Virus record (IMG/VR): IMGVR_UViG_3300028563_000023
Coordinates: 1 to 59,675 of that record
Strand: one strand, 5' to 3'
Source: a virus
Length of the DNA: 59,675 nucleotides
Shown: in pieces, positions 1 to 59,675 of the stretch
How the letters are laid out: each line of letters opens with the position of its first letter
Numbering within the stretch: position 1 is the first letter of the stretch
Notes under the pieces: generated by a model
What the model saw: only the letters and a program-made list of their open reading frames with translations
Databases searched by the model: none
Told to the model about the DNA's origin: nothing
Made by a program: the position numbers and the translations under genes

Positions 1-25
1 CTTAAACAAGCCAAAACTGCTCTCG

Positions 26-55
26 GTGACAGATCGTGACACTTTTCTCTAGTGT
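26..55 (+). promoter_or_regulatory. Candidate sigma70-type promoter in the ParB-methyltransferase leader
   Basis: GTGACA (26-31) and TAGTGT (50-55) are separated by 18 nt. The inverted pair GTGACACTT (36-44) and AAGTGTCAC (94-102) lies across and downstream of it, as expected of an operator. The same arrangement is kept in the second copy at 56837-56866, where a third AAGTGTCAC lies upstream at 56794-56802. Transcription would leave a leader of about 100 nt before the gene at 166. A second, closer -10 box at 152-157 may give a leaderless transcript. Confidence 0.4.
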
Positions 56-120
56 AGGCCGCATGCGCGCGCACGGAACGAAACTCCCCACGGAAGTGTC
101 ACACCTGTCATCCGTCACAC

Positions 121-133
121 GGGAATCATTCCC
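121..133. promoter_or_regulatory. 13-bp palindrome GGGAAT-C-ATTCCC
   Basis: A perfect 6+1+6 inverted repeat, conserved at 56932-56944. It lies between the GTGACA/TGTCAC repeats and the -10 box of the methyltransferase gene. It looks like a dimeric-repressor operator; the binding protein is unknown. The XRE protein at 5381 or the RHH protein at 44236 are candidates by inference only. Confidence 0.4.
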
Positions 134-151
134 ATCTTTGACCTGAGCGCG

Positions 152-157
152 TAAACT
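152..157 (+). promoter_or_regulatory. Leaderless-type -10 box TAAACT before the methyltransferase
   Basis: TAAACT ends 8 nt before the ATG at 166, so transcription would begin at or next to the start codon. There is no Shine-Dalgarno in the gap. The box is conserved at 56963-56968 although the bases just upstream differ between the copies. It belongs to a set of similar boxes before operon-first genes. Confidence 0.5.
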
Positions 158-165
158 CCGAGCCG

Positions 166-1419
166 ATGAGCGAAGTAGAAACCTTGGCGCGCGACCTGTC
201 CTCGCTGGCGGTAGTCGACGCGCCTGTGGCCGAGCTCCGCGGCTGGGATCGGAACCCGCGCCGGATCAAGCCGGCGCGGCTCGAGCAGCTGAAGGCGATG
301 CTGACCGCGTCGCCGGAGATGCTGCGCGCCCGGCCGCTGATCGCGCTTCCTGATGGAACGGTGATCGCCGGCAACCAGCGTCTCGCCGCTGCGCAGGCGC
401 TCGGCTGGGAGTCCATCCCTGCTGTCTTCGTCGACCTGGATGAGGCGACGGCGATCGAGTGGGCGTTCCGCGACAACAATCCGGCGGGCGAATCGGACGA
501 CGATCTGGCCGCGGTTCTACTTGCGGATCTGGCGGAGCGCGGCCGGGCTTTGGACATGACGGGGTTTGCTCCGTCGGATCTGTCGGCGCTTCTGCGGCGG
601 GTTGCTCCGAAGAATGATCCGGATGCGGTGCCACCGGTTCCGAAAAAGCCGAAGAGTAAACGCGGCGAGATATACGAGCTCGGTAATCACCGGTTGATGT
701 GCGGGGACGCGACGAGCGCGGAGGATGTGGCGGCGCTGATGGGCGGCTCGAGCGTCGCATTGCTCTTCACCGACCCGCCGTATGGTGTGAACTACCAGGG
801 CGACGAGGATCCCGAGTCGCTGCGGCGGCGGAACAGACGCACGGACGGCAAGGCGACGGTCGCCGGCGACGCGCTCGGCGACGACGGCACACGTGCGCTC
901 GTGTCGGCCGCTCTCGCGACGGCGCGCACGGGGATGGCTCCCGGTGCCACCTTCTACGTCTGCTCGCCGTCGGGCATGTCGGAGCTCGCGTTCCGGCTTG
1001 CGCTCCAGGACGCCTCGTTCGAGTTGCGCCAGGCGATCGTCTGGGCGAAGGACGTGTTCGCGTTCGGGCGGCAGGACTACCACTGGCGGCACGAGTCGAT
1101 CCTCTACGGCTGGCTCGCCGGCGCGGCGCATCTCTGGAACGGCGGCCGGAAGCAGGACACGGTCTGGGAGATCGCGAGGCCGAAGCGCTCGCCGGAGCAT
1201 CCGACGATGAAGCCGGTCGAACTCGTCGAGCGCGCACTTTGGAACTCGAGCGATCCCGAGAAGGCTGTGCTCGATCCGTTCGCAGGGAGCGGCTCAACCC
1301 TGATCGCCGCCGAGCAGTCGAACCGCCGCTGCTTCGCGCTCGAGATCGACCCGGCCTACTGCGACGTGATCCGGCAGCGCTACGCCGACTTCGTCAACGA
1401 CCAGAAGTGGGCGCCATGA
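166..1419 (+). CDS. ParB-domain DNA methyltransferase (DPPY, beta class)
   Basis: 417 aa. Residues about 15-110 are a ParB/Srx-like nuclease-fold domain (IAGNQRLAAA motif near 67-76). Residues about 168-417 are an amino-methyltransferase: motif IV TDPPYG at 202-207 precedes motif I DPFAGSG at 370-376, the beta-class order, predicting N6-adenine or N4-cytosine methylation. The ParB-methyltransferase fusion is common in phages next to the terminase and probably protects virion DNA from host restriction. The stop overlaps the next ATG (ATGA). The middle of the catalytic half, which should carry target specificity, differs completely from the second copy at 56977 while both ends are nearly identical. 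Confidence 0.9.
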   Translation: MSEVETLARDLSSLAVVDAPVAELRGWDRNPRRIKPARLEQLKAMLTASPEMLRARPLIALPDGTVIAGNQRLAAAQALGWESIPAVFVDLDEATAIEWAFRDNNPAGESDDDLAAVLLADLAERGRALDMTGFAPSDLSALLRRVAPKNDPDAVPPVPKKPKSKRGEIYELGNHRLMCGDATSAEDVAALMGGSSVALLFTDPPYGVNYQGDEDPESLRRRNRRTDGKATVAGDALGDDGTRALVSAALATARTGMAPGATFYVCSPSGMSELAFRLALQDASFELRQAIVWAKDVFAFGRQDYHWRHESILYGWLAGAAHLWNGGRKQDTVWEIARPKRSPEHPTMKPVELVERALWNSSDPEKAVLDPFAGSGSTLIAAEQSNRRCFALEIDPAYCDVIRQRYADFVNDQKWAP

Positions 1420-2018
1420 GCGAACCCGCCCCGGTGAAGAAGAAGCGGGCGAAGCCGCCGAACCGCGACGGCTCGTTCCCGCAACGCCGGCCGATCACCC
1501 CGAAGCGCCGCCAGATCGGCGAAGGCACCAAGATCAACGAGGCGATCACCGAGAAGATCGTCCAGGCCGTCAGGATCGGCGCGCCGCTGAACACCGCGCG
1601 CGCCTACGCCGGCGTGCCGACACCGACGTTCAACGAATGGCTGCGCCTCGGCCGCGAAGGCTGGGAGCCCTACGTCGCCCTTGTCGAGAAGATCGACGCG
1701 GCGATGGCCGAGGGCGAGATGCGCGACATCGCAAGGATCGACGCCGGCGCCGACAAGGACTGGCGTGCCGCCGGGTTCAAGCTGGAGCGTCGGTTCCCGG
1801 AGCGGTGGGGTGAGAAGAAACAGATCGAGGCGACCGTCACCGGCCGCCCGTTCGTCGACCTGTCGAAGTTGACGTTGGAGGAGCAGCTGCAACTCAGGTC
1901 GCTGCTCGCGAAGGCGTCTCCGGAGCAGGCCGAGCTCCCGGCGGACGGGAAGCCGGCGGCGGAGATCCTTGCCGCGTCGATCGAGGGCGAAGTAGTGTCC
2001 GAGGAGGAAGTCGCTTGA
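1416..2018 (+). CDS. Terminase small subunit-like protein
   Basis: 200 aa. A basic N-terminus (KKKRAKPPNRDG) is followed by a helix-turn-helix-like segment at about 38-75 (ITEKIVQAVRIGAPLNTARAY, then a PTFNEWLRLG recognition-helix-like stretch), a helical middle and an acidic tail. It is coupled by ATGA to the methyltransferase and lies 1.5 kb before the large terminase, the usual TerS position. DNA-binding TerS would recognise the packaging site. The start chosen is the ATG at the overlap, because the second copy (58212) begins at the equivalent place. The assignment rests on motif and position; a non-packaging HTH protein is the alternative. Confidence 0.65.
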   Translation: MSEPAPVKKKRAKPPNRDGSFPQRRPITPKRRQIGEGTKINEAITEKIVQAVRIGAPLNTARAYAGVPTPTFNEWLRLGREGWEPYVALVEKIDAAMAEGEMRDIARIDAGADKDWRAAGFKLERRFPERWGEKKQIEATVTGRPFVDLSKLTLEEQLQLRSLLAKASPEQAELPADGKPAAEILAASIEGEVVSEEEVA

Positions 2019-2039
2019 TCCCCATCCAGGAGGTTTGAA

Positions 2040-2483
2040 ATGGCTCGCACGATCGAAGGCCACAAGTTGTTCAAGGGAACGCAGAACCTCGGCGACGTGC
2101 GGGTGCCGCGCGGCGACGTGACGCTAGAGATCCACCGTTGCGGCGAGTGCGGCGTCATCTGGGGCATCGAGGAGGGTTACATCGCGGCGCGCCGGGACGA
2201 CCATCTCGGCTGGGTTTGCCCGAACGGCCACTCGTTCGTCTTCAACGGGCCGTCCGAGGAAGAGAAGCTGCGCCAGCAACTCGAGCGCGAGACACGCCGC
2301 GCCGACCGGCATGCTGAGGAACGCCGCGCAGCGGAAGCGTCGTTGCGCGCGACGAAGGGCCAGGTGACGAAGCTCAAGAAGCGCGTCGCCGCCGGCGTCT
2401 GCCCGTGCTGCGGCCGGACGTTCCAGCAGTTGGCCCGGCACATGGAGAACAAGCATCCCGACTACGCGCACGCCGAGGCGTAG
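2040..2483 (+). CDS. Zinc-ribbon/coiled-coil/C2H2-like zinc-finger protein
   Basis: 147 aa. An N-terminal zinc ribbon (CGECG near 34-38, then CPNGH near 60) is followed by a charged coiled coil (about 75-120). A C-terminal finger has CPCCG, 11 intervening residues, then H and H (RHMENKH), a C2H2-like arrangement. Excellent Shine-Dalgarno AGGAGG at 2028-2033, 6 nt before the ATG. It is inserted between TerS and the 36-aa peptide and is absent from the second copy, so it is a cassette gene. Nucleic-acid binding is likely; the target is unknown. Confidence 0.7.
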   Translation: MARTIEGHKLFKGTQNLGDVRVPRGDVTLEIHRCGECGVIWGIEEGYIAARRDDHLGWVCPNGHSFVFNGPSEEEKLRQQLERETRRADRHAEERRAAEASLRATKGQVTKLKKRVAAGVCPCCGRTFQQLARHMENKHPDYAHAEA

Positions 2484-2486
2484 ACT
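2481..2486 (+). promoter_or_regulatory. Leaderless-type -10 box TAGACT
   Basis: TAGACT overlaps the stop of the zinc-finger gene and ends 7 nt before the ATG at 2494, with no ribosome binding site between. The equivalent in the second copy is TAACCT at 58815-58820, with the same 7-nt gap, although the upstream gene is different there. Confidence 0.4.
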
Positions 2487-2493
2487 CCGCGCC

Positions 2494-2604
2494 ATGCAGA
2501 CTCTCGCGTTCACCGTCACGAAGGGCGACCTCGAAGTCGTCGCGCTGATCCTGGTCATCGTCGTGCTCGTCCTGATCCTGCTCAAGAAGCTCCGCGTCTG
2601 GTGA
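2494..2604 (+). CDS. Single-span membrane peptide, 36 aa
   Basis: A short head (MQTLAFTVTKGDLE), a hydrophobic helix of about 17 residues (VVALILVIVVLVLILL) and a basic tail (KKLRVW). It is conserved in the second copy (58828-58938) with substitutions that keep the membrane segment, which argues for real coding. Its TGA overlaps the GTG of the next gene. Function unknown. Confidence 0.6.
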   Translation: MQTLAFTVTKGDLEVVALILVIVVLVLILLKKLRVW

Positions 2605-3533
2605 TCCCGCTCACCGTCCTCGCCGAGACGAAGACGACGCTGACCGTCGGCTGGACGCCGCTGCGGAACGCGACCGGCTACGAGTTCCTCGTCGACAGCG
2701 TCCGGGTGTCAAACACGTTCGACCCGACCCGGTCGAGCGTGAAGTTCGGGAAGCCATCGAGCGGCGAGCACATCTACTCCGTCGTGGCGCTCGGCAAGCT
2801 CGACGAGGGCGACCTGACATGGCCGGCTGTCACACCGCCGGTCGGCTGGGTCGTCGCCCCGCCGGCGCCACCGCCGGTCGGCACCGTGATCACGAACCCT
2901 GTTGGCGCCGGCGTGAACGTCTACCAGGCACCGGCGCACATCACCGACACGGTCGTCAACGGCGGTCAGGATCAGGCGTTCCTGGTGCAGGGCGGACAAG
3001 GCGGCGGTGCCGGCTCGACGTTCGAGCGGATTCAGGGCAACCTCGTCGGCGGCTACTCGGTGCCGCACAACAACAAGCATTTCTTCTACGTCAAGGGTGC
3101 GAACGTCACCGCGCTCGACGCGTCCGCGACGGCGGCGCTCTCGCCGAACCGCGGCGACGGCGGCTTCTCCGTCCGCTACGCAGGCTTCCGCGCCGAGAGG
3201 TTCAAGCTGATCGGCTTCCAACTGCCGCTCTGCATCTTCGCCGACGACCTCGTCAAGGGCCCGGTGCTGTTCAAGGACGGGATCGTCGACGTGCAACCGG
3301 GACAGCCGGTGTTCTACGGGTCGACCGACGAGGCGGCGACGCTGAACTACGACGTCGAGCTCGACAACGTCGCTGCGACCGGGCCGGACGGCAACCCGTT
3401 CTGGAACTTCGACACGGGCACGTTCCTCGGCACCCTGACGGTTCACGCCACTTGCACCTACAACGGTGTTCCGATCACGAAGGCGAGCCAGGGCCGCAAC
3501 TGCCCGGCCGGGCAACTCCGCCTCGTCGCCTGA
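2601..3533 (+). CDS. FN3-like/beta-rich virion-associated protein
   Basis: 310 aa. Residues 1-80 resemble a fibronectin type III domain (TTLTVGWTP, ATGYEFLVDS, SGEHIYSVVAL). A proline linker (about 85-93) leads to a glycine-rich, beta-solenoid-looking region (about 95-310) with turns such as VVNGGQDQAF and GGFSVRYAGF. The C-terminus (CTYNGVPIT...RNCPAGQL) could be disulphide-linked. No signal peptide. A virion decoration or fibre protein is inferred from architecture and its place before TerL. The GTG start overlaps the preceding stop; the second copy starts with ATG at the same residue, supporting this start. Confidence 0.55.
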   Translation: MIPLTVLAETKTTLTVGWTPLRNATGYEFLVDSVRVSNTFDPTRSSVKFGKPSSGEHIYSVVALGKLDEGDLTWPAVTPPVGWVVAPPAPPPVGTVITNPVGAGVNVYQAPAHITDTVVNGGQDQAFLVQGGQGGGAGSTFERIQGNLVGGYSVPHNNKHFFYVKGANVTALDASATAALSPNRGDGGFSVRYAGFRAERFKLIGFQLPLCIFADDLVKGPVLFKDGIVDVQPGQPVFYGSTDEAATLNYDVELDNVAATGPDGNPFWNFDTGTFLGTLTVHATCTYNGVPITKASQGRNCPAGQLRLVA

Positions 3534-3540
3534 CGGCGCG

Positions 3541-5175
3541 ATGAGCGTCATCGAACTGAACCTCGCCGAGCTCGACGCGGCGATCGAACGGAAACGCAGC
3601 GGGCAGACGCTCGCCGACCAGGCGGAGGCGTGGAGCGGTGATCTGCACACGTTCATGCGGCAGGCGTGGCCGGTGCTCGAGCCGGACACGCCGTTCGTCG
3701 ACGGATCCCATATCGAGGCGATCTGCGACCACCTGGAGGCGGTCTCGGCGGGCGAGCTCCGGAAGTTGATGATCAACGTGCCGCCCGCCACGTCGAAGAG
3801 CACGACCGTCTCCGTGATCTGGCCGGTCTGGGACTGGATCCACAAGCCGAACCGTTCGTTCATCACCGGCAGCTACCACATCGACCTTTCGACCGACTTC
3901 GCGGTCAAGTCGCGCGACCTGATCCAGTCGTGGTGGTTCCAGTCCCGTTGGGGCCATCTGTTCCAGATGAAGGGTGACGAGAACCTGAAGACCCGCTACC
4001 GGAACGACCGGCGCGGCCGCCGCTACGCGACATCCCCGGGCGGTGGCGGCACCGGCCAGCACGCGAACATCATCATCGTCGACGATCCGCACAACGCGAA
4101 GGAGGCGGAGGGTGCGACCCCGTCGGCGTTGCAGGCCGCGATCGGCTGGCAGGACGGCACCCTGTCGACCCGGTTCGCCGACCCGAAGACGGGCGCGCAG
4201 GTGATCATCATGCAGCGCCTCCACGAGGCTGATCTGTGCGGGCATCTGCTCGCGAAAGAGGACGGGCACTCCTGGACGGTGCTGTGTCTTCCCGAGGAGT
4301 ACGACCCTGACCATCCGAACGTGACACCGGAGCGGATCGTGTTGCCGTCAGGACGGGTGTTGGCCGGCGACCCGCGCACCGTGCCGGGCGAGTTGCTGTG
4401 CCCTGACAGGATCGGCCCTGTCGAGCATCGGGCCCGTGCGGAGGCGCTCGGCTCGTTCCGGGCGTCGGGCCAGCTGCAGCAGCGGCCGACCGCGGTCGAG
4501 GGCGAGATTCTGAAGCGGGCCGACTGGATGTTCTTCCCGCCCGCCTGGCTCGACGACGACGGGAGGAAGCATCTGCCGGCGTTCACGCATGTCGCGCAGT
4601 CGTGGGACACGACGTTCAAGGATCGGACGAACAGCGACTTCGTTGTCGGCCAGATCTGGGGTGTCCGTGGCGCCGACCGTTTCCTGCTCCGGGTGTTCCG
4701 GGCCCGGATGAATTTGACGGCGACGAAGACGGCGATGCGTGAGGCGAACGCGTGGGCGACGGAGCGGTGGCCGCGTGCGGCGCACAAGATCCTGATCGAG
4801 AAGTCCGCGAACGGGGTTGACATCATCGCCGATTTGAAGCGGGAGCTCCCGGGGATTGAGCCGATCGTCGCGGCGACTGACAAGACGACGAGGGCGATTG
4901 CTGCGTCGCCGGCGCTCGAGTCGGGGAACGTGTGGATCCCAGGTTTGAAGTCGTCTGACCCGGCGGGCTATGACTCGCAGAGGACGCCGTCTGAGTCGGC
5001 GCAGCTGGTGGAGGAGGCTGCGGTGTTCCCGAAGGGCGCGAACGACGACTCTGTGGATGCGTTTTCGCAAGCCATGAACTGGGCGCGTGGCCGTGCTTCG
5101 CGAGCACGGGTGACGGTCAACTTGGAGCAGATCGGCCAGGTTGGTGCGATCCCGACACCAGGCCGCTGGGAGTAG
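3541..5175 (+). CDS. terL: Terminase large subunit
   Basis: 544 aa, normal length. The ATPase domain has the variant Walker A of this family (PPATSKST, about residues 81-88) and a Walker B IIIVDD followed by PHNAKEA (about 177-190). The RNase H-like nuclease domain starts near residue 350 with the aspartate motif SWDTTFKD, and the C-terminal acidic motif is DDSVDAF (about 502). It pumps DNA into proheads and cuts concatemers. The start is the ATG at 3541 just after the upstream stop; an upstream extension in the same frame would overlap the previous gene and carries no conserved sequence. Confidence 0.95.
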   Translation: MSVIELNLAELDAAIERKRSGQTLADQAEAWSGDLHTFMRQAWPVLEPDTPFVDGSHIEAICDHLEAVSAGELRKLMINVPPATSKSTTVSVIWPVWDWIHKPNRSFITGSYHIDLSTDFAVKSRDLIQSWWFQSRWGHLFQMKGDENLKTRYRNDRRGRRYATSPGGGGTGQHANIIIVDDPHNAKEAEGATPSALQAAIGWQDGTLSTRFADPKTGAQVIIMQRLHEADLCGHLLAKEDGHSWTVLCLPEEYDPDHPNVTPERIVLPSGRVLAGDPRTVPGELLCPDRIGPVEHRARAEALGSFRASGQLQQRPTAVEGEILKRADWMFFPPAWLDDDGRKHLPAFTHVAQSWDTTFKDRTNSDFVVGQIWGVRGADRFLLRVFRARMNLTATKTAMREANAWATERWPRAAHKILIEKSANGVDIIADLKRELPGIEPIVAATDKTTRAIAASPALESGNVWIPGLKSSDPAGYDSQRTPSESAQLVEEAAVFPKGANDDSVDAFSQAMNWARGRASRARVTVNLEQIGQVGAIPTPGRWE

Positions 5176-5181
5176 TAAACT
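5176..5181 (+). promoter_or_regulatory. Leaderless-type -10 box TAAACT after terL
   Basis: TAAACT ends 8 nt before the ATG at 5190, directly after the terL stop. The gap (CGCTTGCC) has no Shine-Dalgarno. It would start transcription of the accessory block separately from the terminase operon. Confidence 0.45.
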
Positions 5182-5189
5182 CGCTTGCC

Positions 5190-5384
5190 ATGAGAAAGCC
5201 ACGCAAGAAGCCGCCAACCCCGAAGGTCACCTCCCGCGTCCAGGACACGTCGCAGGTCGCCCGCGGTTTCAAGCAGCCTCCGAACCACCGGGCGCAGGTG
5301 CTCGCAAGGGTGACGGGGCTCGAGGTGTATGACGGGGTTGAGGCGGCGAACCAGGCCGGACTACCGATGCCGGGGCAGTTCTGA
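5190..5384 (+). CDS. Small basic hypothetical protein
   Basis: 64 aa, Lys/Arg/Pro-rich N-terminus (MRKPRKKPP) and an amphipathic C-terminal half. First gene after terL and possibly leaderless. The final codons overlap the predicted CTG start of the next gene. No family recognised. Confidence 0.55.
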   Translation: MRKPRKKPPTPKVTSRVQDTSQVARGFKQPPNHRAQVLARVTGLEVYDGVEAANQAGLPMPGQF

Positions 5385-5608
5385 GCGAGCGCCTCGTCAC
5401 ACCGCATGCAGAGAGGCTCGGCTACACGGTGCGGATCTTCCGTGAGAATGAGGGTTTGAGCCAAGAGGCGCTCGCGAACGAGCATGGGCGAACGCAGGTC
5501 TGGCTTTCGTACATCGAGACAGGAAAGAGCGAGCCGACGTTGGGCGACCTCTTCTGGCTCGCGCACCGCCTCGGCTTCTCGATCGACCGTGCGCTCATGC
5601 CGAAGTGA
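5381..5608 (+). CDS. XRE-family helix-turn-helix regulator with a probable CTG start
   Basis: 75 aa. The whole protein is a Cro/C1-type fold: helix 1 (GYTVRIFRENEGL), helix 2 (SQEALANEHG), recognition helix (TQVWLSYIETGKSEPT), then helices 4-5 (LFWLAHRLGFSIDRAL). In frame, the only initiator upstream of helix 1 is CTG at 5381, overlapping the preceding stop as CTGA. The next option, GTG at 5429, would remove part of helix 1. No strong Shine-Dalgarno, so translation would depend on coupling. It is the only XRE-type regulator I see. Its gene overlaps the next start (GTGA). Confidence 0.75.
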   Translation: MSERLVTPHAERLGYTVRIFRENEGLSQEALANEHGRTQVWLSYIETGKSEPTLGDLFWLAHRLGFSIDRALMPK

Positions 5609-6303
5609 GCCGCATCTCTGTGATAGCGCCTGTTCTAGGTCGGCCCGCGAACGCCGCGCCACTCGTCGAGTCGCTGCTCGCATCGACCGATCAGGCCACG
5701 CTCGTCTTCGTCTGCTCGCCGCGAGACTACGACCAGATCGACGCGTGTCTTCGCGCCAGTGTCGGACAGCCTCGCGTATGCACGGTCATCCACAAGACGC
5801 CACCAGGGCCAGCGGACTACGCGGCCAAAATCCAGCGAGGCTACGACTGGACGGACATGCCGCTCGTCCTGCTCGCCGCCGACGATCTCCGCTTCCAACC
5901 CGGCTGGCTCGAAGCCGTCGAAGCCATCGCCGACGAGTACGACGTGGGTGTGATCGGCACGAACGACAACGCGAACCCGAGTGTGAAGGCAGGCCGGCAC
6001 TCGACGCATCCCGTCGTAAGGCGCTGCTACATCGACCAGTACGGCGGCTCGGTGGGCGAGCCGGGGCAGGTGTACCACGAGGGTTACGACCATCAGTACG
6101 TCGACAACGAACTCGTGGCGACCGCGATGGCTCGAGGCTGCTACGCGCACGCCCACGATGCCGGTGTTCACCACCTTCACCCGCTCTACGACCGGACGGT
6201 GCGCCGGGATCCGACCTACGACAAAGGGCAGGCGAAAGGCGCCGAAGACCGGCGCCTGTTCGAGTCGCGACGACCGCTCTGGGAGAACGAGATTCGCGTA
6301 TAG
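5605..6303 (+). CDS. GT-A-fold glycosyltransferase (family 2-like)
   Basis: 232 aa. It opens with SRISVIAPVLGRP, the first strand of a GT-A nucleotide-sugar domain. LVLLAADDLRFQPGWLEA (about 88-105) contains the acidic nucleotide-sugar/metal motif in the form DD. The C-terminal half has conserved-looking aromatic and acidic residues (YHEGYDHQYVDNEL). No membrane span, so cytosolic. The GTG start overlaps the preceding stop. One of five dispersed glycosyltransferases; acceptor unknown (virion protein, cell wall or DNA). Confidence 0.75.
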   Translation: MSRISVIAPVLGRPANAAPLVESLLASTDQATLVFVCSPRDYDQIDACLRASVGQPRVCTVIHKTPPGPADYAAKIQRGYDWTDMPLVLLAADDLRFQPGWLEAVEAIADEYDVGVIGTNDNANPSVKAGRHSTHPVVRRCYIDQYGGSVGEPGQVYHEGYDHQYVDNELVATAMARGCYAHAHDAGVHHLHPLYDRTVRRDPTYDKGQAKGAEDRRLFESRRPLWENEIRV

Positions 6304-10140: not shown

Positions 10141-10577
10141 ACCTCGCAAGCGGGCCACAGCCCATCGATGGCTTTCACAATCTCAACCCGCCAGAGTGGC
10201 GCTTCGAACTTGGCCTGGGCGACTACTCCGACGAGAGCGTAGAGGCAATTACCGAGAGTCACGGCTTGCTCTACCTGCCGAAGTTGAACTGGGAGTACGT
10301 CTTCAAGGAGTTCGCGCGCGTGCTCGAGCCTGGCGGCATCATCCGGATCACCGAAGACGACACTGAGAACGAAGCGTCGGAACGCGCCGGCGGCTGGCAT
10401 GACGCGGTGACGTTGACCGGGCCGAAGATGATGGCGGCGGCGCTCCGGAAGGCGAAGCTGATCGTGCAGAAGGTCGACGCGGACACGACGTTCTTCCACG
10501 ACCGATCGCTGCTCCAGGCGTGGCATGGGCCGGCGCCGAAGTGCTTCTGGATCGAAGGGCGCAAGCCGGCGGCATGA
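10125..10577 (+). CDS. SAM-dependent methyltransferase, compact
   Basis: 150 aa. LNLASGPQPIDGFHNLN (about 5-21) is the motif I/II form seen in predicted SAM methyltransferases with GF(V/H)N(L/V)D. EYVFKEFARVLEPGGIIRITE (about 60-80) is the motif V-VI region. Shorter than usual class I enzymes, with a reduced segment between strands 2 and 4. Overlaps the HNH gene by 16 nt; a GTG at 10119 is also possible. Substrate unknown, probably a glycan given its neighbours. Confidence 0.65.
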   Translation: MAIRLNLASGPQPIDGFHNLNPPEWRFELGLGDYSDESVEAITESHGLLYLPKLNWEYVFKEFARVLEPGGIIRITEDDTENEASERAGGWHDAVTLTGPKMMAAALRKAKLIVQKVDADTTFFHDRSLLQAWHGPAPKCFWIEGRKPAA

Positions 10578-11299
10578 CCGTCGACATCCTCTACGTTGCT
10601 TATAACCGGCTCGCGTTCACGGAGCCGTCGTTCCAGGCGCTGATCGACAACACCGACTGGTCGCTCGTCCGCACCCTGCACATCCACGACGACGGATCCA
10701 GAGACGGCGCGGCGCGCTACCTGCAAGACGCGCTCGATGCGATCCCCGACGCGGTCGACGTGCGCTACGAGTCGATGCGTCTCGGCGGCCCTGTCGCCGC
10801 CACCAACCGGCACCTCGACCTCCTGTCCACCACCGCCGAGCAGGACGACGTCGGCGCGTTCGTGAAACTCGACAACGACGTCGTCGTATCACCCGGCTGG
10901 CTCAACGAGCTCACCCGCGTCGCGACACTCAACCCCGGCATCGACTTCCTCGGCATCCAGCCACGCTTCGGCCCGCCCGTGATGGGACACTGCGACGAAC
11001 GCCGCGTCGAAGAAGCACGCCACATCGGCGGCGTCGGGCTGATGCGCTACCGGGCGTTCGAGGTTTGCCGGCCGACACCGAACGGCCGCTACGGCTTCAC
11101 CGAGTTCCAATGCCGCCACCCCGAGAACCGCAAGGGCTGGATCACGCCGGATCTGCCGTGCTTCTGCCTCGACCTGATCGACCTCGAACCGTATGCGACG
11201 CACGCGGTCTCGCACATCGCGAAAGGCTGGGCGCGGCCGTGGTCGAAATACGTCGACGGCGGTCGTTCCTACTACCAGTGGTGGGCACCGGTCGAGTAG
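10574..11299 (+). CDS. Glycosyltransferase family 2
   Basis: 241 aa. TVDILYVAYNRLAFTEPS is the first GT-A strand. DDGSRDGAARYLQ (about 38-50) is the classic GT2 nucleotide-sugar motif. FVKLDNDVVVSPGWLNEL (about 96-113) holds the metal-binding DxD-like DND. A CRHPENRKGW...PCFCLDL region may bind the acceptor. ATG overlaps the previous stop (ATGA). Confidence 0.85.
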   Translation: MTVDILYVAYNRLAFTEPSFQALIDNTDWSLVRTLHIHDDGSRDGAARYLQDALDAIPDAVDVRYESMRLGGPVAATNRHLDLLSTTAEQDDVGAFVKLDNDVVVSPGWLNELTRVATLNPGIDFLGIQPRFGPPVMGHCDERRVEEARHIGGVGLMRYRAFEVCRPTPNGRYGFTEFQCRHPENRKGWITPDLPCFCLDLIDLEPYATHAVSHIAKGWARPWSKYVDGGRSYYQWWAPVE

Positions 11300-11302
11300 A
11301 CT
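11297..11302 (+). promoter_or_regulatory. Leaderless-type -10 box TAGACT before the C5 methyltransferase
   Basis: TAGACT overlaps the stop of the glycosyltransferase and ends 10 nt before the GTG at 11313, with no Shine-Dalgarno. This is the longest gap in the set, so it is a weaker member. Confidence 0.35.
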
Positions 11303-11312
11303 GGCAAGCGAC

Positions 11313-12452
11313 GTGACACTTACTTGCGGATCGCTCTTCTCGGGTATTGGAGGCTTGGACAATGGACTCGCTAGCGCTGGGTTTCGACACGCGTTCTTCT
11401 GTGAGAGCGATCCTTGGCGCCGCACAGTCCTCGCCGCCCACTGGCCCGGAGTGCCCGTCTACGACGACGTGCGTTCAGTCGCTCGCAGAGAACCAGAGGG
11501 GGGAACTGCTGCTGACGGACGTGGCGCACCAGATGACGACGGGCGGTGGGAAGCCGGGCCAGGGCTACCCGGCAGTGTTGATCTCCTCTGCGGTGGGTTC
11601 CCGTGTCAAGACCTCTCCGTCGCCGGGCGAAGAGCAGGACTCCACGCTGGCGAGCGATCATCCCTCTTCTTCGAGTTCGTCCGAATCATCGACGCTCTTC
11701 GACCCAGATTCGTTCTCATCGAGAACGTTCCAGGTTTGCTCAGTTCACAAGGCGGTCGGGACTTCGGAACAGTCATTGGAACGCTGGCCGACATCGGGTA
11801 CGGCCTGGGCTGGCGGATTGTCGACTCACGCTTCTTCGGAGTGCCGCAGCGACGCCGACGGGTGTTCATCGTCGGAACCCTCGCTGTCGGAGATCCTCGA
11901 GCCGCCGCAGAACGTGCCGGGCAAATACTCGCTGTCGGCACGAGCTGCGTCCGGCATCCTCCGTCGGGCCGAGAAGCGGGGCCGGAAGTTGCCGGGACAC
12001 TTGGCGGAGGCGCTGGAGAGCGTGGCTGGGCCCAGGACACCGAGCGCATGACGTTCGTGCCGGTACAGGCGTCAACGCTGAAGGGCCACAACGGCAAGGG
12101 CGGCTCGGGCATCTCGCCCAAAGACACGTTCGTGGCCGACACGGTTCGCTCGCATCCGCGCCCCGGATCGAACTCGAACGGCAACCTTGTCGCCGCGACG
12201 CTCTCGTCCGGCGGCCACCCGAACAGCAACATGCCGGGACTGCGAAAGGAGGACGACGTGAACATCGTTCCGAGCGGAGCCACGGTGCGCCGTCTGACGC
12301 CCGAGGAGTGCGAGGCGCTTCAGGCTTTGCCGCGCGGCTGGACGAACCCCGACGGGAAAGCGCCCGACTCGCGTCGTTACGCCGGGCTCGGCGACGCCGT
12401 CACGGCGAGCGTCGGCGAGTGGATCGGACGGAGGATCATCGCGTGCGGTTGA
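11313..12452 (+). CDS. DNA (cytosine-5) methyltransferase
   Basis: 379 aa, typical length. Motif I LFSGIGGLDNG (8-18), catalytic motif IV GGFPCQDLS with nucleophile Cys98, motif VI IENVPG (136-141), motif VIII QRRRRVFIVG (179-188), then a Gly/Ser-rich target-recognition region (about 210-310). Motifs IX-X follow (RRLTPEECEALQALPRGW; YAGLGDAVTASVGEWIG). All catalytic elements are intact. Orphan, with no restriction partner, so probably self-protection against host restriction. GTG at 11313 starts directly at the first beta strand. Confidence 0.93.
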   Translation: MTLTCGSLFSGIGGLDNGLASAGFRHAFFCESDPWRRTVLAAHWPGVPVYDDVRSVARREPEGGTAADGRGAPDDDGRWEAGPGLPGSVDLLCGGFPCQDLSVAGRRAGLHAGERSSLFFEFVRIIDALRPRFVLIENVPGLLSSQGGRDFGTVIGTLADIGYGLGWRIVDSRFFGVPQRRRRVFIVGTLAVGDPRAAAERAGQILAVGTSCVRHPPSGREAGPEVAGTLGGGAGERGWAQDTERMTFVPVQASTLKGHNGKGGSGISPKDTFVADTVRSHPRPGSNSNGNLVAATLSSGGHPNSNMPGLRKEDDVNIVPSGATVRRLTPEECEALQALPRGWTNPDGKAPDSRRYAGLGDAVTASVGEWIGRRIIACG

Positions 12453-35576: not shown

Positions 35577-38771
<3,195 letters not shown>

Positions 38772-38772
<1 letters not shown>

Positions 38773-39677
38773 TGCCTCCAAAGACGAGAGCGCAGACGAT
38801 CGGGCTCGTGATGATCGTCAAGAACGAAGCCGCCATGCTCCCACGCATGGTCGGATCGCTCAAACCGGCGATCTCGCACTGGACGATCTGCGACACTGGC
38901 TCGACCGACGAGACCGTCGAGATGATCCATGAACTGCTCGGCGACATCCCCGGCGAGCTCCATCATTCACCCTGGGTCAACTTCGGCCACAACCGCACCG
39001 AGGCGTTCGCGCTCGCGCGCGGCACCGCCGACTACCTGCTCGTCTTCGACCCCGACATGCAACTCGAGATGCTCGAGCCGCTCCCGCACCTGAGCGCCGA
39101 TGTCTACAACTTGGCGATCAAAGGCTACGGCTTCGACCTGAGGCTGCCGCTCCTCACCCGCGGCAACCTTGAATGGCGCTACGAGGGCGTCGTTCACGAG
39201 CATCTCGCCGGCAACAACTACCCGGAAACCCCGGCCGTGCCGCTCGACTGCTGGCACGTTCATCAAGATCACCCTGCCGAACGGCAGAACGTAAAGGCTC
39301 AGGTTTACCTTGAGATCTTGACAGCCGAGTTCGGCCGCGACCCGACGAACCCGCGCACCGTCTTCTACCTCGCGCGCACGCATGCCCAGCTGGGGAATGT
39401 GAAGGAGGCGATCACCTTCTTCCGGCTCCGCTGCGAGATGGGCGGCTGGGATCAGGAGCGCTACTACGCCCGCTACCAACTCGGCTGTCTGCTCACCGAG
39501 CACGTCTCTATTTTCGACGGGGCCGAAGTGCTTCTACGCGCATCGCGGGAGCGACCGTCAAGGATCGAAGGCCTGCGCGCGCTCGCGAACGCGCTGAACG
39601 CCGTGGCAGACCAGGCGAAAACACCCGACGACGTATTGTTCGTCCACCGAGACCTCTACGCGCCGACCGAACGATGA
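38772..39677 (+). CDS. Glycosyltransferase family 2 with TPR-like C-terminus
   Basis: 301 aa. TIGLVMIVKNEAAMLPRMVGSL is the GT2 VKNE start. CDTGSTDETVEMIHE (about 40-54) is the nucleotide-sugar motif, and YLLVFDPDMQLEM (about 85-97) contains DPD. CWHVHQDHPAERQN is the usual acceptor-side segment. The C-terminal 90 residues are tetratricopeptide-like helices (PRTVFYLARTHAQLGNVKEA; YARYQLGCLL). Located directly behind the collagen-like fibre, whose Thr residues are the obvious candidate acceptors (inference). Confidence 0.88.
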
Positions 39678-52926: not shown

Positions 52927-53541
52927 TTGTTGATCCTCGTCCACACAGCTCACCCGCAAGCCGTCCAGCACGCCGGGCCAGGGTTCGGCCGGCTGCTCTC
53001 GCCCCGCCAGTTCTCACGGGTCGCCGACACCGCAGCCGCCGGCATCTCCTGGGCAGCCGACAACGACTGCTTCCAACGCCTCGACGTCGTCGCCTACCGG
53101 AAGATGCTCGAGGCTGTCCGTGACGTGCCGAACTGCCTGTTCGTGGTCGCCCCCGATGTCGTAGGCGACTGGCAGACGACCCGTTCGCGCTGGGATGAGT
53201 GGGTCGTCTGGTTGCGCATCATCGGCCAGCCGCCCGCCTACGTCGCCCAGGACGGCCAGCCGTGCGACAGCGTCCCGTGGGACGAGATCGGGGCGCTCTT
53301 CATCGGCGGAACCACCGCCTTCAAACTCTCACCCGAAGCCGAACGGCTCGGCCGGGAAGCGAAACGACGCGGCCTGTGGCTGCACATGGGACGCGTCAAC
53401 AGCCGCAAACGCTTCGACTACGCGCGCGCCACAGGCTGCGACTCCATTGACGGCAGCAAGTTCTCCCGCTGGCGCAACACCTGGCTCCCGGAAGTTCTAG
53501 AGTGGCACACCGACCATCTACAAGAAAGGCTGGAAGCATGA
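52927..53541 (+). CDS. DpdA/TGT-superfamily-like protein
   Basis: 204 aa. TIM-barrel-like pieces in order: ISWAADNDCFQRL, NCLFVVAPDVVGDWQTT, PAYVAQDGQPCDSVPWDEIG, ALFIGGTTAFKLSPEAERLG, RGLWLHMGRVNSRKRFDYA and GCDSIDGSKF. This is the pattern of short actinophage proteins usually called queuine tRNA-ribosyltransferase, related to DpdA, which inserts 7-deazaguanines into phage DNA. Half the length of TGT, so possibly a minimal enzyme. TTG start. Coupled by ATGA to a VUT/YhhQ transporter gene, which strengthens the call. Confidence 0.6.
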   Translation: MLILVHTAHPQAVQHAGPGFGRLLSPRQFSRVADTAAAGISWAADNDCFQRLDVVAYRKMLEAVRDVPNCLFVVAPDVVGDWQTTRSRWDEWVVWLRIIGQPPAYVAQDGQPCDSVPWDEIGALFIGGTTAFKLSPEAERLGREAKRRGLWLHMGRVNSRKRFDYARATGCDSIDGSKFSRWRNTWLPEVLEWHTDHLQERLEA

Positions 53542-54092
53542 AGCCCAGAACCCCATCCATCGCGATCTTCGCGCCGCTCGCCATCATCTTCTTCGGGCTC
53601 GTGATCCTCGCGAACTGGCTCGCCTCCAAGTACACGATCACCGTCCCGTTCACCAACTACCTCGCCCCGGCCGGCACGCTCTGCATTGGCGGCGTGCTCG
53701 TGCTACGCGATTGGATGCAGCAGTTGAAGGGGCTGCTCTGGACGATGCCGATCGTCTACCTCGCCGGCCTCACATCCTGGCTTGTCGGAGACCTTGCCGG
53801 CTGGACAGGACTCGAAAAGATCGCCATCGCCTCAGTGATCGCGTTCTCCGTCAGCGAAACCGTCGAAGCGCTGATCTTCACCCCGCTGCGCAAGAAGCAC
53901 CTGACCGCCGGCGTCGGTCTGAGCGCAACCGTCGGCAACGCGCTCGACTCGTACATTTTCCTCGCCATCGCGTTCGGCTCGCAGGCGTTCTTCTGGGGCA
54001 ACTTCATCGGCAAGTTGGAGATGATCGCCATCGGAGTCGTCCTCACCGCCGGGCGCCGCTGGTTCTTCCCCGTCGAAGTGGCAACAGCGTGA
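53538..54092 (+). CDS. VUT/YhhQ-family queuosine-precursor transporter
   Basis: 184 aa, five to six membrane spans (IFAPLAIIFFGLVILANWLA; YLAPAGTLCIGGVLVLRDWMQQ; IVYLAGLTSWLVGDLAG; IAIASVIAFSVSETVEALIF; GNALDSYIFLAIAFGS). The APAGTLC...LRDWMQ, SETVEALIF and VGNALDSYIFL motifs are those of VUT_1/YhhQ, which imports preQ0/preQ1. Phage versions are known near DpdA. Inner membrane. ATGA overlap with the DpdA-like gene. Confidence 0.85.
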   Translation: MKPRTPSIAIFAPLAIIFFGLVILANWLASKYTITVPFTNYLAPAGTLCIGGVLVLRDWMQQLKGLLWTMPIVYLAGLTSWLVGDLAGWTGLEKIAIASVIAFSVSETVEALIFTPLRKKHLTAGVGLSATVGNALDSYIFLAIAFGSQAFFWGNFIGKLEMIAIGVVLTAGRRWFFPVEVATA

Positions 54093-54367
54093 TCGTCACC
54101 CAGCACCGCCTTACGTTCACCGCTATCTGCCCCGTCAACGGCAGCCGCGATGTCTACCAGATGACCGTCGAGACGAGCGAAACGATCGAAGTCGAGCGCA
54201 TCCTGGCAGCCGTCGAGCAGGCGACGAAGGAGCCCGTGTACCAGGAGAGCCTGACGCAGTGGCTCGCCGACGGGCTCGGAGCGACCGTGACGACGGAGGC
54301 CGTCCACTCAGGCGTCGAGACCCGCTGCAAGGCAGAGCGCGCGGTGACGGCCCGACCGGTGTTCTGA
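54089..54367 (+). CDS. Unknown 92-aa protein of the deazaguanine module
   Basis: GTG start overlapping the transporter stop. HRLTFTAICPVNGSRDVYQM, VETSETIEVERILAAVEQAT, LTQWLADGLGATVTTEAVHS then GVETRC: two strands, a helix, two strands. This layout loosely recalls the small T-fold used by QueD/QueF/FolE, but no catalytic signature can be confirmed. Its place between a preQ transporter and a nuclease suggests a role in base modification (inference). Confidence 0.5.
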   Translation: MIVTQHRLTFTAICPVNGSRDVYQMTVETSETIEVERILAAVEQATKEPVYQESLTQWLADGLGATVTTEAVHSGVETRCKAERAVTARPVF

Positions 54368-54738
54368 TGCCGCGCCGGTTCGGCCCAGCCCTGCCGCTCG
54401 AGGATCTGACCGAGAAGGAATGGGTGGCGCAGGGTGTCCAACTGGCCCGACAGATGGGTTGGAAGCGCTACCACACGTTCCGCTCCGACCGCTCCGAACC
54501 AGGCTGGCCCGACGACGCCCTCGTCCGCGACCGGCTGCTCCTGATCGAGTGGAAAACCGAGAAAGGCAAGCTGTCCGACGCGCAGAAGGAATGGATCCGG
54601 GCGCTGATCAACGCTCAAGTAGAGGTCTACGTTGCACGGCCACGGCACCTCGACGATCTCGCTACGGTGCTCCGAGCACGCGGAACAGCGCCGGCGAGGA
54701 CGATGCTGTTTGAGACGCACGAGCTCGTAACTCTCTAG
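54367..54738 (+). CDS. VRR-NUC nuclease (Holliday junction resolvase-like)
   Basis: 123 aa. TFRSDRSEPGWPDDALVRDR holds the catalytic Asp, and LLLIEWKTEKGKLSDAQKEW the E-x-K and following helix; EVYVARPRHLDDL closes the domain. This is the PD-(D/E)xK VRR-NUC fold. It would resolve branched intermediates before packaging. TGATG overlap with the previous gene. Confidence 0.88.
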   Translation: MPRRFGPALPLEDLTEKEWVAQGVQLARQMGWKRYHTFRSDRSEPGWPDDALVRDRLLLIEWKTEKGKLSDAQKEWIRALINAQVEVYVARPRHLDDLATVLRARGTAPARTMLFETHELVTL

Positions 54739-56767: not shown

Positions 56768-56976
56768 CAAACAGCAAACCAGCCATAGCCCACAAGTGTC
56801 ACAGCAAATGGCTTAAACAAGCCGTTTCTGCTCTCGGTGACAGATCGTGACACTTTTCTCTAGTGTAGGCCGCATGCGCGCGCACGGAACGAAACTCCCC
56901 ACGGAAGTGTCACACCTGTCATCCGTCACACGGGAATCATTCCCATCTTTGCGGTGAAGGGTTAAACTCCGAGCCG
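56768..56976. promoter_or_regulatory. Leader with iterated GTGACA/TGTCAC motifs (possible origin or operator)
   Basis: 209 nt without a gene. AAGTGTCAC at 56794-56802 and 56905-56913 flank its complement GTGACACTT at 56847-56855; a further GTGACA is at 56837 and a CTGTCATCCGTCAC stretch at 56916-56929. GTGACA with TAGTGT (56861-56866) can form a promoter. The palindrome GGGAATCATTCCC is at 56932-56944 and a TAAACT box at 56963-56968. Lying between the helicase gene and the packaging genes, it could be an origin or a control region. Confidence 0.5.
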
Positions 56977-58215
56977 ATGAGCGAAGTAGAAACCTTGGCG
57001 CGCGACCTCCCCTCCCTGGCGGTCGTCGACGCGCCGGTGGCCGAGCTCCGCGGTTGGGATCGGAACCCGCGCCGGATCAAGCCGGCGCGGCTCGAGCAGC
57101 TGAAGGCGATGTTGACCTCGAGCCCGGAGATGCTGCGTGCGCGGCCGTTGATCTGTTTGCCGGACGGGACGGTGATCGCCGGCAACCAGCGGCTGGCGGC
57201 TGCGCAGGCATTGGGCTGGGAGTCGATCCCTGCTGTCTTTGTCGATCTGGATGAGGCGACGGCGATCGAGTGGGCGTTCCGCGACAACAATCCGGCCGGC
57301 GAATCAGACGACGATCTAGCTGCGGTTCTGCTGGCGGATCTGGCGGAGCGCGGCCGGGCTCTGGACATGACGGGGTTCGCACCCAGCGATCTGTCGGCGC
57401 TTCTGCGGCGGGTTGCTCCGAAGAACGACCCGGATGCGGTGCCGCCGGTTCCTGAAAAGGCTAAGTCGAAACGCGGCGTGGTTTACGAGCTCGGTAATCA
57501 TCGGTTGATGTGCGGTGACGCGACGAGCGCGGAAGATGTGGCGGCGCTGATGGACGGCTCGAGCGCGGCGCTGCTGGTGACGGATCCGCCTTACGGCGTT
57601 GGCGTCGACCACCGCTGGCGAAAGGATGCCTTCAAAGTGCGACTAGGGCCGGATCGAGCCGCGATTGAGGGTGACGACCGCTTCGCCTGGATTGAGGCGT
57701 ACCGACTCACAGATGCATCCGTCGCCTACGTGTGGCATTCGGCGCTTCACGCCGGCAGCGTGCAAGCCGAACTTGAAGAGGCGGGCTTCGATGTTCGCCA
57801 GCAGATCGTGTGGGCTAAGGCTGTCTTCGCGATCGGCCGTTCGGCCTACCAGTGGAAGCACGAGACCTGCTGGTACGCGGTGCGCCGGGGCGCGACGGCT
57901 CGCTGGTTTGGTGGCCGCTCGCAGACGACGGTCTGGGAAGCGGCAAGCCCCATTCAGATATTTAGCGGGGGCGGCAACGACACGCGCACTCCTCATCCGA
58001 CGCAGAAGCCGTCGGCGATCTTCGAGCCGCCGATCTCAAACCACACCGAGCCCGGCGACATCGTCTACGACCCGTTCCTAGGTAGCGGCACGACGCTGAT
58101 CGCTGCCGAGCAACTCGGCCGATGCTGCTTCGGCCTTGAGATCGACCCGGCCTACTGCGATGTGATCCGGCAGCGGTACGCCGACTACGTCAACGACCAG
58201 AAGTGGGCGCCATGA
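56977..58215 (+). CDS. ParB-domain DNA methyltransferase, variant specificity
   Basis: 412 aa. The ParB-like domain and motif IV TDPPYG (202-207) are almost identical to the first copy. From about residue 208 to 360 the sequence is replaced (VDHRWRKDAFKVRLGPDR onward, with AYVWHSALHAGSVQAELEEA). It rejoins at YDPFLGSGTTLIAAEQLG and the shared end EIDPAYCDVIRQRYAD. Motifs are intact, so both versions should be active on different targets. TAAACT box 8 nt before the ATG. Confidence 0.9.
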   Translation: MSEVETLARDLPSLAVVDAPVAELRGWDRNPRRIKPARLEQLKAMLTSSPEMLRARPLICLPDGTVIAGNQRLAAAQALGWESIPAVFVDLDEATAIEWAFRDNNPAGESDDDLAAVLLADLAERGRALDMTGFAPSDLSALLRRVAPKNDPDAVPPVPEKAKSKRGVVYELGNHRLMCGDATSAEDVAALMDGSSAALLVTDPPYGVGVDHRWRKDAFKVRLGPDRAAIEGDDRFAWIEAYRLTDASVAYVWHSALHAGSVQAELEEAGFDVRQQIVWAKAVFAIGRSAYQWKHETCWYAVRRGATARWFGGRSQTTVWEAASPIQIFSGGGNDTRTPHPTQKPSAIFEPPISNHTEPGDIVYDPFLGSGTTLIAAEQLGRCCFGLEIDPAYCDVIRQRYADYVNDQKWAP

Positions 58216-58817
58216 GCGAACCCGCACCGCCTCCCAAGAAGAAGCGGGCGAAGCCGCCGAACCGCGACGGGTCGTTCCCGCAACGCCGGCCGATCACCCC
58301 GAAGCGCCGCCAGATCGGCGAAGGCACCAAGATCAACGAGGCGATCACCGAGAAGATCGTCCAGGCCGTCAGGATCGGTGCCCCGCTCAACACGGCGCGC
58401 GCTTACGCCGGCGTGCCGACACCGACGTTCAACGAGTGGCTGCGCCTCGGCCGCGAAGGCTGGGAGCCCTACGTCGCCCTGGTCGAGAAGATCGACGCGG
58501 CGATGGCCGAGGGCGAGATGCGCGACATCGCCCGGATCGACGCCGGCGCCGACAAGGACTGGCGGGCAGCCGGGTTCAAACTCGAACGGCGCTTCCCGGA
58601 ACGCTGGGGTGAGAAGAAGCAGATCGAGGCGACCGTCACCGGGCGCCCGTTCGTCGACCTGTCGAAGCTGACGCTCGAGGAGCAGCTGCAACTCAGGTCG
58701 CTGCTCGCGAAGGCCTCGCCGGAGCAGGCCGAGCTCCCGGCGGACGGGAAGCCGGCGGCGGAGATCCTTGCCGCGTCGATCGAAGGCGAAGTTGTCTCCG
58801 AAGAGGAAGTCGCGTAA
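58212..58817 (+). CDS. Terminase small subunit-like protein, copy 2
   Basis: 201 aa, nearly identical to the protein at 1416 except at the N-terminus (APPPKKKRAKPP, one residue longer). Many synonymous differences in DNA show the copies have been separate for some time under purifying selection. ATGA overlap with the methyltransferase. Confidence 0.65.
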   Translation: MSEPAPPPKKKRAKPPNRDGSFPQRRPITPKRRQIGEGTKINEAITEKIVQAVRIGAPLNTARAYAGVPTPTFNEWLRLGREGWEPYVALVEKIDAAMAEGEMRDIARIDAGADKDWRAAGFKLERRFPERWGEKKQIEATVTGRPFVDLSKLTLEEQLQLRSLLAKASPEQAELPADGKPAAEILAASIEGEVVSEEEVA

Positions 58818-58827
58818 CCTCCGCGCC

Positions 58828-58938
58828 ATGCAGACACTCGCGTTCACCGTAACGAAGGGCGACCTTGAAGTCACGGCGCTCGTGCTCGTCATCGTCGTGC
58901 TCGCACTGATCCTGCTCAAACGCGGCCGCTTCTGGTGA
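58828..58938 (+). CDS. Single-span membrane peptide, copy 2
   Basis: 36 aa, same layout as 2494-2604, with changes such as T for V and RGRF for KLRV. TAACCT at 58815-58820 lies 7 nt before the ATG. Its stop overlaps the GTG of the next gene. Confidence 0.6.
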   Translation: MQTLAFTVTKGDLEVTALVLVIVVLALILLKRGRFW

Positions 58939-59123
58939 TCGACGACCCGCGCGAAGGCTGCCGCTGCAACGGCGGCGCCAACGGCCACGACCACCGGCTG
59001 CTGGTCATGCGCGTCAACGCGTCGTTCGAGAAGGATCGCGAACGGGCGCTCTTCGGCCAGGGGAACACCACATCCGAAGCGCTACGCAGACGCGCCATCG
59101 CTCCGACGAACGGACACGCATGA
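58935..59123 (+). CDS. Small hypothetical protein present only in copy 2
   Basis: 62 aa with GCRCNGGANGHDHR, a Cys/His cluster, then a charged helix (ASFEKDRERALFGQG). Fits exactly between neighbours with 4-nt overlaps (GTGA, ATGA). It has replaced a direct junction in copy 1. Confidence 0.5.
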   Translation: MIDDPREGCRCNGGANGHDHRLLVMRVNASFEKDRERALFGQGNTTSEALRRRAIAPTNGHA

Positions 59124-59675
59124 TCCCGCTCACCGTCCTCGCCGAGACGAAGACGACGCTCACAGTCGGCTGGACACCGGTGCCGAACGCGACCGGCTAC
59201 GAGTTCCTCGTCGACAGCGTCCGGGTGTCGAACACGTTCGACCCGACACGTTCGAGCGTGAAGTTCGGGAAGCCATCGAGCGGCGAGCATGTCTACTCGG
59301 TCGTGGCGCTCGGCAAGCTCGACGAGGGCGACCTGACGTGGCCTGCGGTCACGCCGCCGCCGGTCGGCTGGGTCGTCGCACCGCCCAGGCCGCCGATCAC
59401 GGTGATCAACAACCCGGTCGGGGCAGGCGTGAACGTCTACCAGGCGCCCGCGCACATCGTCGACACCGTCGTCAACGGCGGCCAAGATCAGGCATTCCTG
59501 GTGCAAGGCGGACAAGGCGGCGGTGCCGGCTCGACGTTCGAGCGGATCCAGGGCAACCTCGTCGGCGGCTACTCGGTGCCGCACAACAACAAGCATTTCT
59601 TCTACGTCAAGGGTGCGAACGTCACCGCGCTCGACGCGTCCGCGACGGCGGCGCTCTCGCCGAACCGCGGCGACG
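59120..59675 (+). CDS. FN3-like/beta-rich virion-associated protein, copy 2 (truncated by window end)
   Basis: First 185 residues of the homologue of the protein at 2601, with few changes (TPVPNATG; a PPRPPITVINNP linker). Starts with ATG where copy 1 has GTG. Runs off the window. Confidence 0.6.
   Translation, partial: MIPLTVLAETKTTLTVGWTPVPNATGYEFLVDSVRVSNTFDPTRSSVKFGKPSSGEHVYSVVALGKLDEGDLTWPAVTPPPVGWVVAPPRPPITVINNPVGAGVNVYQAPAHIVDTVVNGGQDQAFLVQGGQGGGAGSTFERIQGNLVGGYSVPHNNKHFFYVKGANVTALDASATAALSPNRGD

Follow-up and report, generated by a model that had tools for sequence, protein, structure and literature searches.

A phage cassette of short DpdA, YhhQ-type transporter and QueF-like protein predicted to modify DNA with a salvaged 7-deazaguanine

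Could a virus disguise its own DNA without the usual genes for 7-deazaguanine synthesis? The question is raised by three consecutive genes in IMG/VR record IMGVR_UViG_3300028563_000023, from a virus of bacteria; the window analysed here is the whole record of 59,675 nt. For the products of these genes (Table 1) we computed the folds or families, the catalytic residues and the conservation of gene coupling, and we established the absence of de novo synthesis genes. The combined evidence makes it probable that the genes form a cassette that modifies phage DNA with a salvaged 7-deazaguanine, in which preQ0 would be imported, inserted by DpdA and finished by the QueF-like protein. Salvage had already been suggested in an initial annotation, and the idea gains support from fold, catalytic residues, conserved coupling and the absent de novo genes; the finishing step by the third protein is an addition to that reading.

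Table 1. Genes of the cassette and the gene that follows it (positions in the window)
Predicted product	Position	Strand	Start codon	Stop codon	Length (aa)	Profile match
Short DpdA-type guanine transglycosylase	52927-53541	+	TTG	TGA	204	
VUT_1/COG1738 (YhhQ/QPTR-type) queuosine-precursor transporter	53538-54092	+	ATG	TGA	184	
QueF-like T-fold protein	54089-54367	+	GTG	TGA	92	
VRR-NUC domain protein	54367-54738	+				Pfam VRR_NUC 2e-7

Both junctions within the cassette are 4-nt overlaps (ATGA between the DpdA and YhhQ genes, GTGA between the YhhQ and QueF-like genes); coordinates and overlaps are exactly those first annotated, and the motifs quoted at that time are all present. The start of the VRR-NUC gene overlaps the stop codon of the QueF-like gene by 1 nt (TGATG, 54367). 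This translationally coupled gene is probably downstream cargo and not a modification enzyme; a VRR-Nuc gene is likewise present in phage Aoka, some 3 kb downstream of the DpdA there. Two small genes lie upstream of the cassette.

The TTG start of the DpdA gene is backed by L006, a homologue that has these residues (LILVHTAHPQAV) starting from an internal ATG. The 204-residue protein has no match in Pfam or NCBIfam. By tblastn, it matches 24 phage records with identities of 34-47%; the annotation 'DpdA-like tRNA-guanine transglycosylase' is carried by many of these. An AlphaFold (AF2) model, built from an alignment of 47 sequences, has a mean pLDDT of 95.3, and its best matches in the PDB by Foldseek are tRNA-guanine transglycosylases (TGT; TMq 0.55-0.60; top match 3s1g, E 1.1e-5, TMq 0.60), with other barrels scoring just slightly below. 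In hhalign, the family profile aligns to that of long phage DpdAs together with the TGT of E. coli (TGT/DpdA1) at an E-value of 1.4e-5. The alignment pairs Asp175, Asp45 and Asp77 with Asp264, Asp89 and Asp143 of E. coli TGT, and Gln108 and Gly127/Gly128 with its Gln and Gly-Gly. In the Z. mobilis enzyme, Asp280 is the nucleophile and Asp102 the acid/base, while Asp156, Gln203 and Gly230 are substrate residues. The catalytic and substrate residues are invariant or nearly invariant in the 47 homologues. On its model and profile alignment, the protein is a TGT/DpdA-type barrel, predicted to insert a 7-deazaguanine into DNA. The profile search and structure prediction thus led to a TGT-type fold and not to an unrelated one, and the initial DpdA/TGT-like assignment is upheld by fold, catalytic residues and gene coupling.

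The enzyme is short, with 204 residues against 375 for TGT; it stops 15 residues past the aligned barrel, and the C-terminal zinc-binding part of TGT is absent. Long phage DpdA (for example that of 9g) and the DpdA2 of nt-1 share with it the TIM-barrel TGT fold and the matching catalytic aspartates. The short DpdA profile matches long DpdA weakly (Funsized gp3, 7e-6; 9g, 0.045). We rejected an identity with DpdA2, as the profile gives just −1.8 bits to ORF390 (464 aa) of Vibrio phage nt-1, which we take to be the DpdA2 of that phage.

The second protein matches Pfam VUT_1 (PF02592) with 2.4e-9 and 38.2 bits, above the curated cut-off of 27.2, and the same role as that of the YhhQ/QPTR (COG1738, VUT_1) preQ0 transporters is expected. 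In contrast to these, it falls under the cut-off of TIGR00697, the NCBIfam equivalog for queuosine precursor transporters (2.9e-6, 27.2 bits; cut-off 50.95), and of the profile, just the stretch from the middle to the C-terminus is matched. In phages Aoka, StevieRay and ReqiPine5, a homologue of the transporter adjoins the short DpdA or sits one gene away. Arthrobacter phage Aoka has all three genes, whereas in Mycobacterium phage StevieRay, with transporter and DpdA, a QueF-like gene was not seen. Judged by family membership, gene 2 is a VUT_1/YhhQ-type transporter, for which preQ0 import is predicted; the Pfam match and the conserved gene coupling agree with the first assignment.

Given the kinship of the gene 1 protein with TGT, and the bacterial use of YhhQ for queuosine in tRNA (PMC5372724), the cassette could instead target host or phage tRNA, in a queuosine-type salvage, and not DNA. 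We consider this very unlikely, since the C-terminal part of TGT is missing, the published phage DpdAs act on DNA (PMC6884629) and the cassette is surrounded by DNA-metabolism genes (VRR-NUC, D5-type primase and DNA methylases). DNA is the target that we infer.

Gene coupling was counted in the best 80 of 251 viral loci with a short DpdA; the set had not been dereplicated, and its counts therefore do not represent independent events, and several of the 80 loci are broken off at contig ends. A YhhQ gene is present in 45 of these best 80, on the same strand as DpdA in all 45 and within 150 nt in 37 of them. As a background, 22 of 50,697 phage records have any match to the window YhhQ; the linkage between YhhQ and DpdA is more than chance. 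Eight of the best 80 loci contain a QueF-like gene, seven of these also with YhhQ, and five contain QueC, QueD, QueE or FolE genes. YhhQ and de novo genes were found together in none of the best 80 (chance 0.014). Counting against the salvage reading, 29 of the 80 have neither nearby. A contrasting locus, L012, has the full de novo set without YhhQ. Another scan, in which the QueF-like protein served as the seed, yielded four new loci, all four with YhhQ, QueF-like protein and short DpdA, bringing the related loci with a QueF-like gene beside a short DpdA to twelve; a Nocardia farcinica contig has the same gene triple. The YhhQ/DpdA pair recurs across these viral loci, and the triple in related ones. 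The gene order varies, being DpdA-YhhQ-QueF in the window and YhhQ-QueF-DpdA in L015, which indicates that the coupling outlives rearrangement.

Other arrangements were encountered in the same searches. L087 has three consecutive genes (3703-5270), for a long-DpdA-like protein, QueE and a QueF-like member of the subgroup to which the window protein belongs, and QueC, QueD, FolE and YhhQ were not found in this 40.7-kb record, making it a second kind of partial cluster. One cluster in L042 (618-4933) contains a short DpdA, a long DpdA-like gene, QueD, QueE, FolE and QueC, and phage Sonali has both DpdA types. Paenibacillus genomes (L117, L119 and L133) have a short DpdA with no YhhQ nearby; these may be prophages that draw on the queuosine pathway of their host.

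The absence of synthesis genes depends on how complete the record is. Its last 2.9 kb (56812-59675) are collinear with its first 3.2 kb (1-3159) at 85-92% identity, interrupted by one replaced stretch inside a ParB/N6-N4 methylase gene. Most simply, the genome is circularly permuted, measures about 56.8 kb and was closed through a strain variant; the record looks complete, since its end runs into a variant form of its beginning. Alternatively, the homologous, diverged ends may be a real duplication in which a methylase segment was exchanged. Family searches across the whole record, with positive controls that worked, found no QueC, QueD, FolE or radical-SAM (QueE) gene. Both the self-overlap and these searches make it less likely that de novo genes were missed through an incomplete record, and they bear out the initial description of a whole genome unit without FolE, QueD, QueE or QueC. 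Elsewhere, the genome encodes a C5-cytosine DNA methylase (11193-12452; Pfam 8.8e-53), and thus has further DNA modification besides the cassette. Family 2 glycosyltransferase genes are scattered in it (10520-11299, 38772-39677 and, weakly, 5605-6303), and 36910-38772 encodes a long collagen-repeat structural protein (Pfam Collagen 4e-33).

The third protein had been left unrecognised. Searched as a single sequence, it has no match among phages, in viral contigs or in the PDB, gives a weak FolE hint in NCBIfam and does not match Pfam QueF (PF14489); just the profiles built from relatives succeeded. Relatives encoded beside short DpdA genes in L015 and L007 bridged it, by iterated HMM, to a protein of phage Aoka encoded between YhhQ and DpdA, which matches Pfam QueF with 8.7e-7 and the PDB QueF-Like weakly. 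Of 14 aligned relatives, nine match PF14489, and the profile of the 14 matches QueF-Like 5jyx with 1.6e-12 and GTP cyclohydrolase I with 7e-7. A profile limited to the window protein plus the three relatives nearest to it matches 5jyx more weakly (0.008), and aligns to the Aoka-type group with 2.1e-6 (hhalign). The AF2 model, from an alignment that included the relatives linking the protein to QueF, has a pLDDT of 94 and a strand-strand-helix-helix-strand-strand topology. QueF-Like is its best Foldseek match (5k0p/5jyx, TM 0.80 as TMq), including the structure with the covalent thioimide. The profile match of the relatives to 5jyx and the Foldseek match rule out a simply unknown protein; as modelled, it is a QueF-family T-fold homologue, its link to Pfam QueF running through relatives.

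Cys14, Pro15, Asp21, Glu53 and Val67 also stand, unchanged, in the QueF proteins of phages Dp-1 and Funsized and in P. calidifontis QueF-L. Asp21 lies seven residues after Cys14, as in QueF, and Glu53 is at the position of the substrate Glu. The NADPH motif of true QueF (ESKSLKLY type) is absent from the window protein, which has ERILAAVE there; its three closest relatives also have forms of this kind, keeping the Glu alone. Invariant in this subgroup instead are Tyr23, Gln52, His73 and Cys80. The HE pair is QE (YQE) in the window protein, and the conserved His73 and Cys80 are extra.

The missing NADPH motif lowers the case for a plain QueF reductase. A nitrile reductase making preQ1, in an otherwise identical cassette leading to dPreQ1 in DNA, is suggested by most of the aligned relatives, the Aoka-type group, which match the preQ1 synthase family TIGR03139 (best 3.7e-9) and keep part of the motif (ELHSLRxY), and by a protein of phage Dp-1 once called QueF-L that yields dPreQ1 (PMC6884629). 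Given that the window subgroup retains just one residue of ESKSLKLY, and that the amidinating QueF-Like gives the top match in structure, we regard dPreQ1 as distinctly unlikely here. Also unlikely is some other T-fold reaction on a 7-deazaguanine, for example one that hydrolyses the nitrile to give the amide (dADG) or one that decarboxylates 7-carboxy-7-deazaguanine, the role assigned to DpdL. Such a reaction would fit the invariant His73 and Cys80, the YQE-LT pattern resembling GTP cyclohydrolase I, and the L087 relative, which adjoins QueE, the enzyme making 7-carboxy-7-deazaguanine, in the record where QueC, QueD and FolE were not found. Against this, the protein retains the nitrile-attacking Cys, the Asp seven positions after it and the Glu that binds preQ0, and with no QueE in the window genome, 7-carboxy-7-deazaguanine would need to come from the host or by import.

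Given the QE pair and His73/Cys80, the protein may have an activity other than that of QueF-L. It is conceivable, if doubtful, that it founds a new QueF-related T-fold subgroup (Cys14, Asp21, Tyr23, Gln52-Glu53, His73 and Cys80), with a reaction on phage-DNA 7-deazaguanine unlike those of QueF and QueF-L, within a cassette living wholly on scavenged precursor.

In the salvage reading that we prefer, with finishing by a QueF-L-type reaction, the VUT_1 protein would import preQ0 and the short DpdA would exchange guanine in phage DNA for it. Cys14 of the QueF-like protein would then attack the preQ0 nitrile, Asp21 serving as general acid and Glu53 keeping the base in place, and the resulting thioimide would react with ammonia to give archaeosine (dG+). 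PreQ0 is most likely the imported base because the third protein keeps the nitrile-attacking residues and preQ0 is the sole pathway intermediate with a nitrile. Import of preQ0 or preQ1 had been envisaged at first; the kept Cys/Asp pair favours the former, and preQ1 appears less favoured. QueF-L, with a conserved Cys and an Asp, converts preQ0-tRNA to archaeosine with free ammonium (PMC5485725). Action after insertion is suggested because, in P. calidifontis QueF-L, ammonium turns over the thioimide formed from preQ0-tRNA and not that from free preQ0 (PMC5485725). As the NADPH motif is absent, the amidine is favoured, the amide or other T-fold reaction being the main alternative; dG+ is a more likely product than dADG or dPreQ1.

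Published phages need dpdA to modify their DNA, and their 7-deazaguanines confer protection from restriction (PMC6884629); by analogy, the expected benefit of the cassette is resistance to host restriction. Modification in such phages is predicted to depend on preQ0 around the host, so laboratory growth could miss it. A point against the proposed modification is phage Orion, which encodes DpdA alone and has unmodified DNA in the laboratory (PMC6884629), although it is absent among the phage records matched by the short DpdA family in tblastn. The cassette also yields a small QueF-like enzyme that probably acts on DNA.

Compared with the Pyrobaculum archaeosine synthase QueF-Like (5jyx, 5k0p), this enzyme shares the T-fold, the Cys/Asp dyad, the substrate Glu and about the same length, and the NADPH motif is missing in both. 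The two differ in sequence (18% identity), in YQE for HEE and in the extra conserved His and Cys; the substrate is tRNA for the Pyrobaculum enzyme and presumed to be DNA for the window protein. Our analysis adds a DpdA clade in close linkage with YhhQ, and a QueF-like partner lacking the NADPH motif. An overlap with DpdA3, DpdA4 and DpdL, names reportedly given in a 2023 paper, is possible. Set against known DpdA and TGT, the window enzyme has just 204 residues and is usually coupled to a transporter rather than to QueCDE. Unlike the de novo clusters (FolE-QueD-QueE-QueC-DpdA with or without QueF; Sonali, 9g, Funsized and Dp-1), the window has no synthesis genes, and the precursor would be salvaged. 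Funsized and Dp-1, like the window, combine DpdA with a QueF-type finisher, and Dp-1 and EC151 share the presence of a transporter. Hutinet et al. (2019) proposed that DpdA-only phages may rely on precursor from the host or from outside, and saw YhhQ in some phages with no correlation with any group (PMC6884629). Our analysis turns this open remark on precursor import into a defined, conserved cassette with testable chemistry: the idea of uptake is the same as for their DpdA-only group, whereas in our loci YhhQ, and in part a QueF-like gene, shows tight linkage to one DpdA clade.
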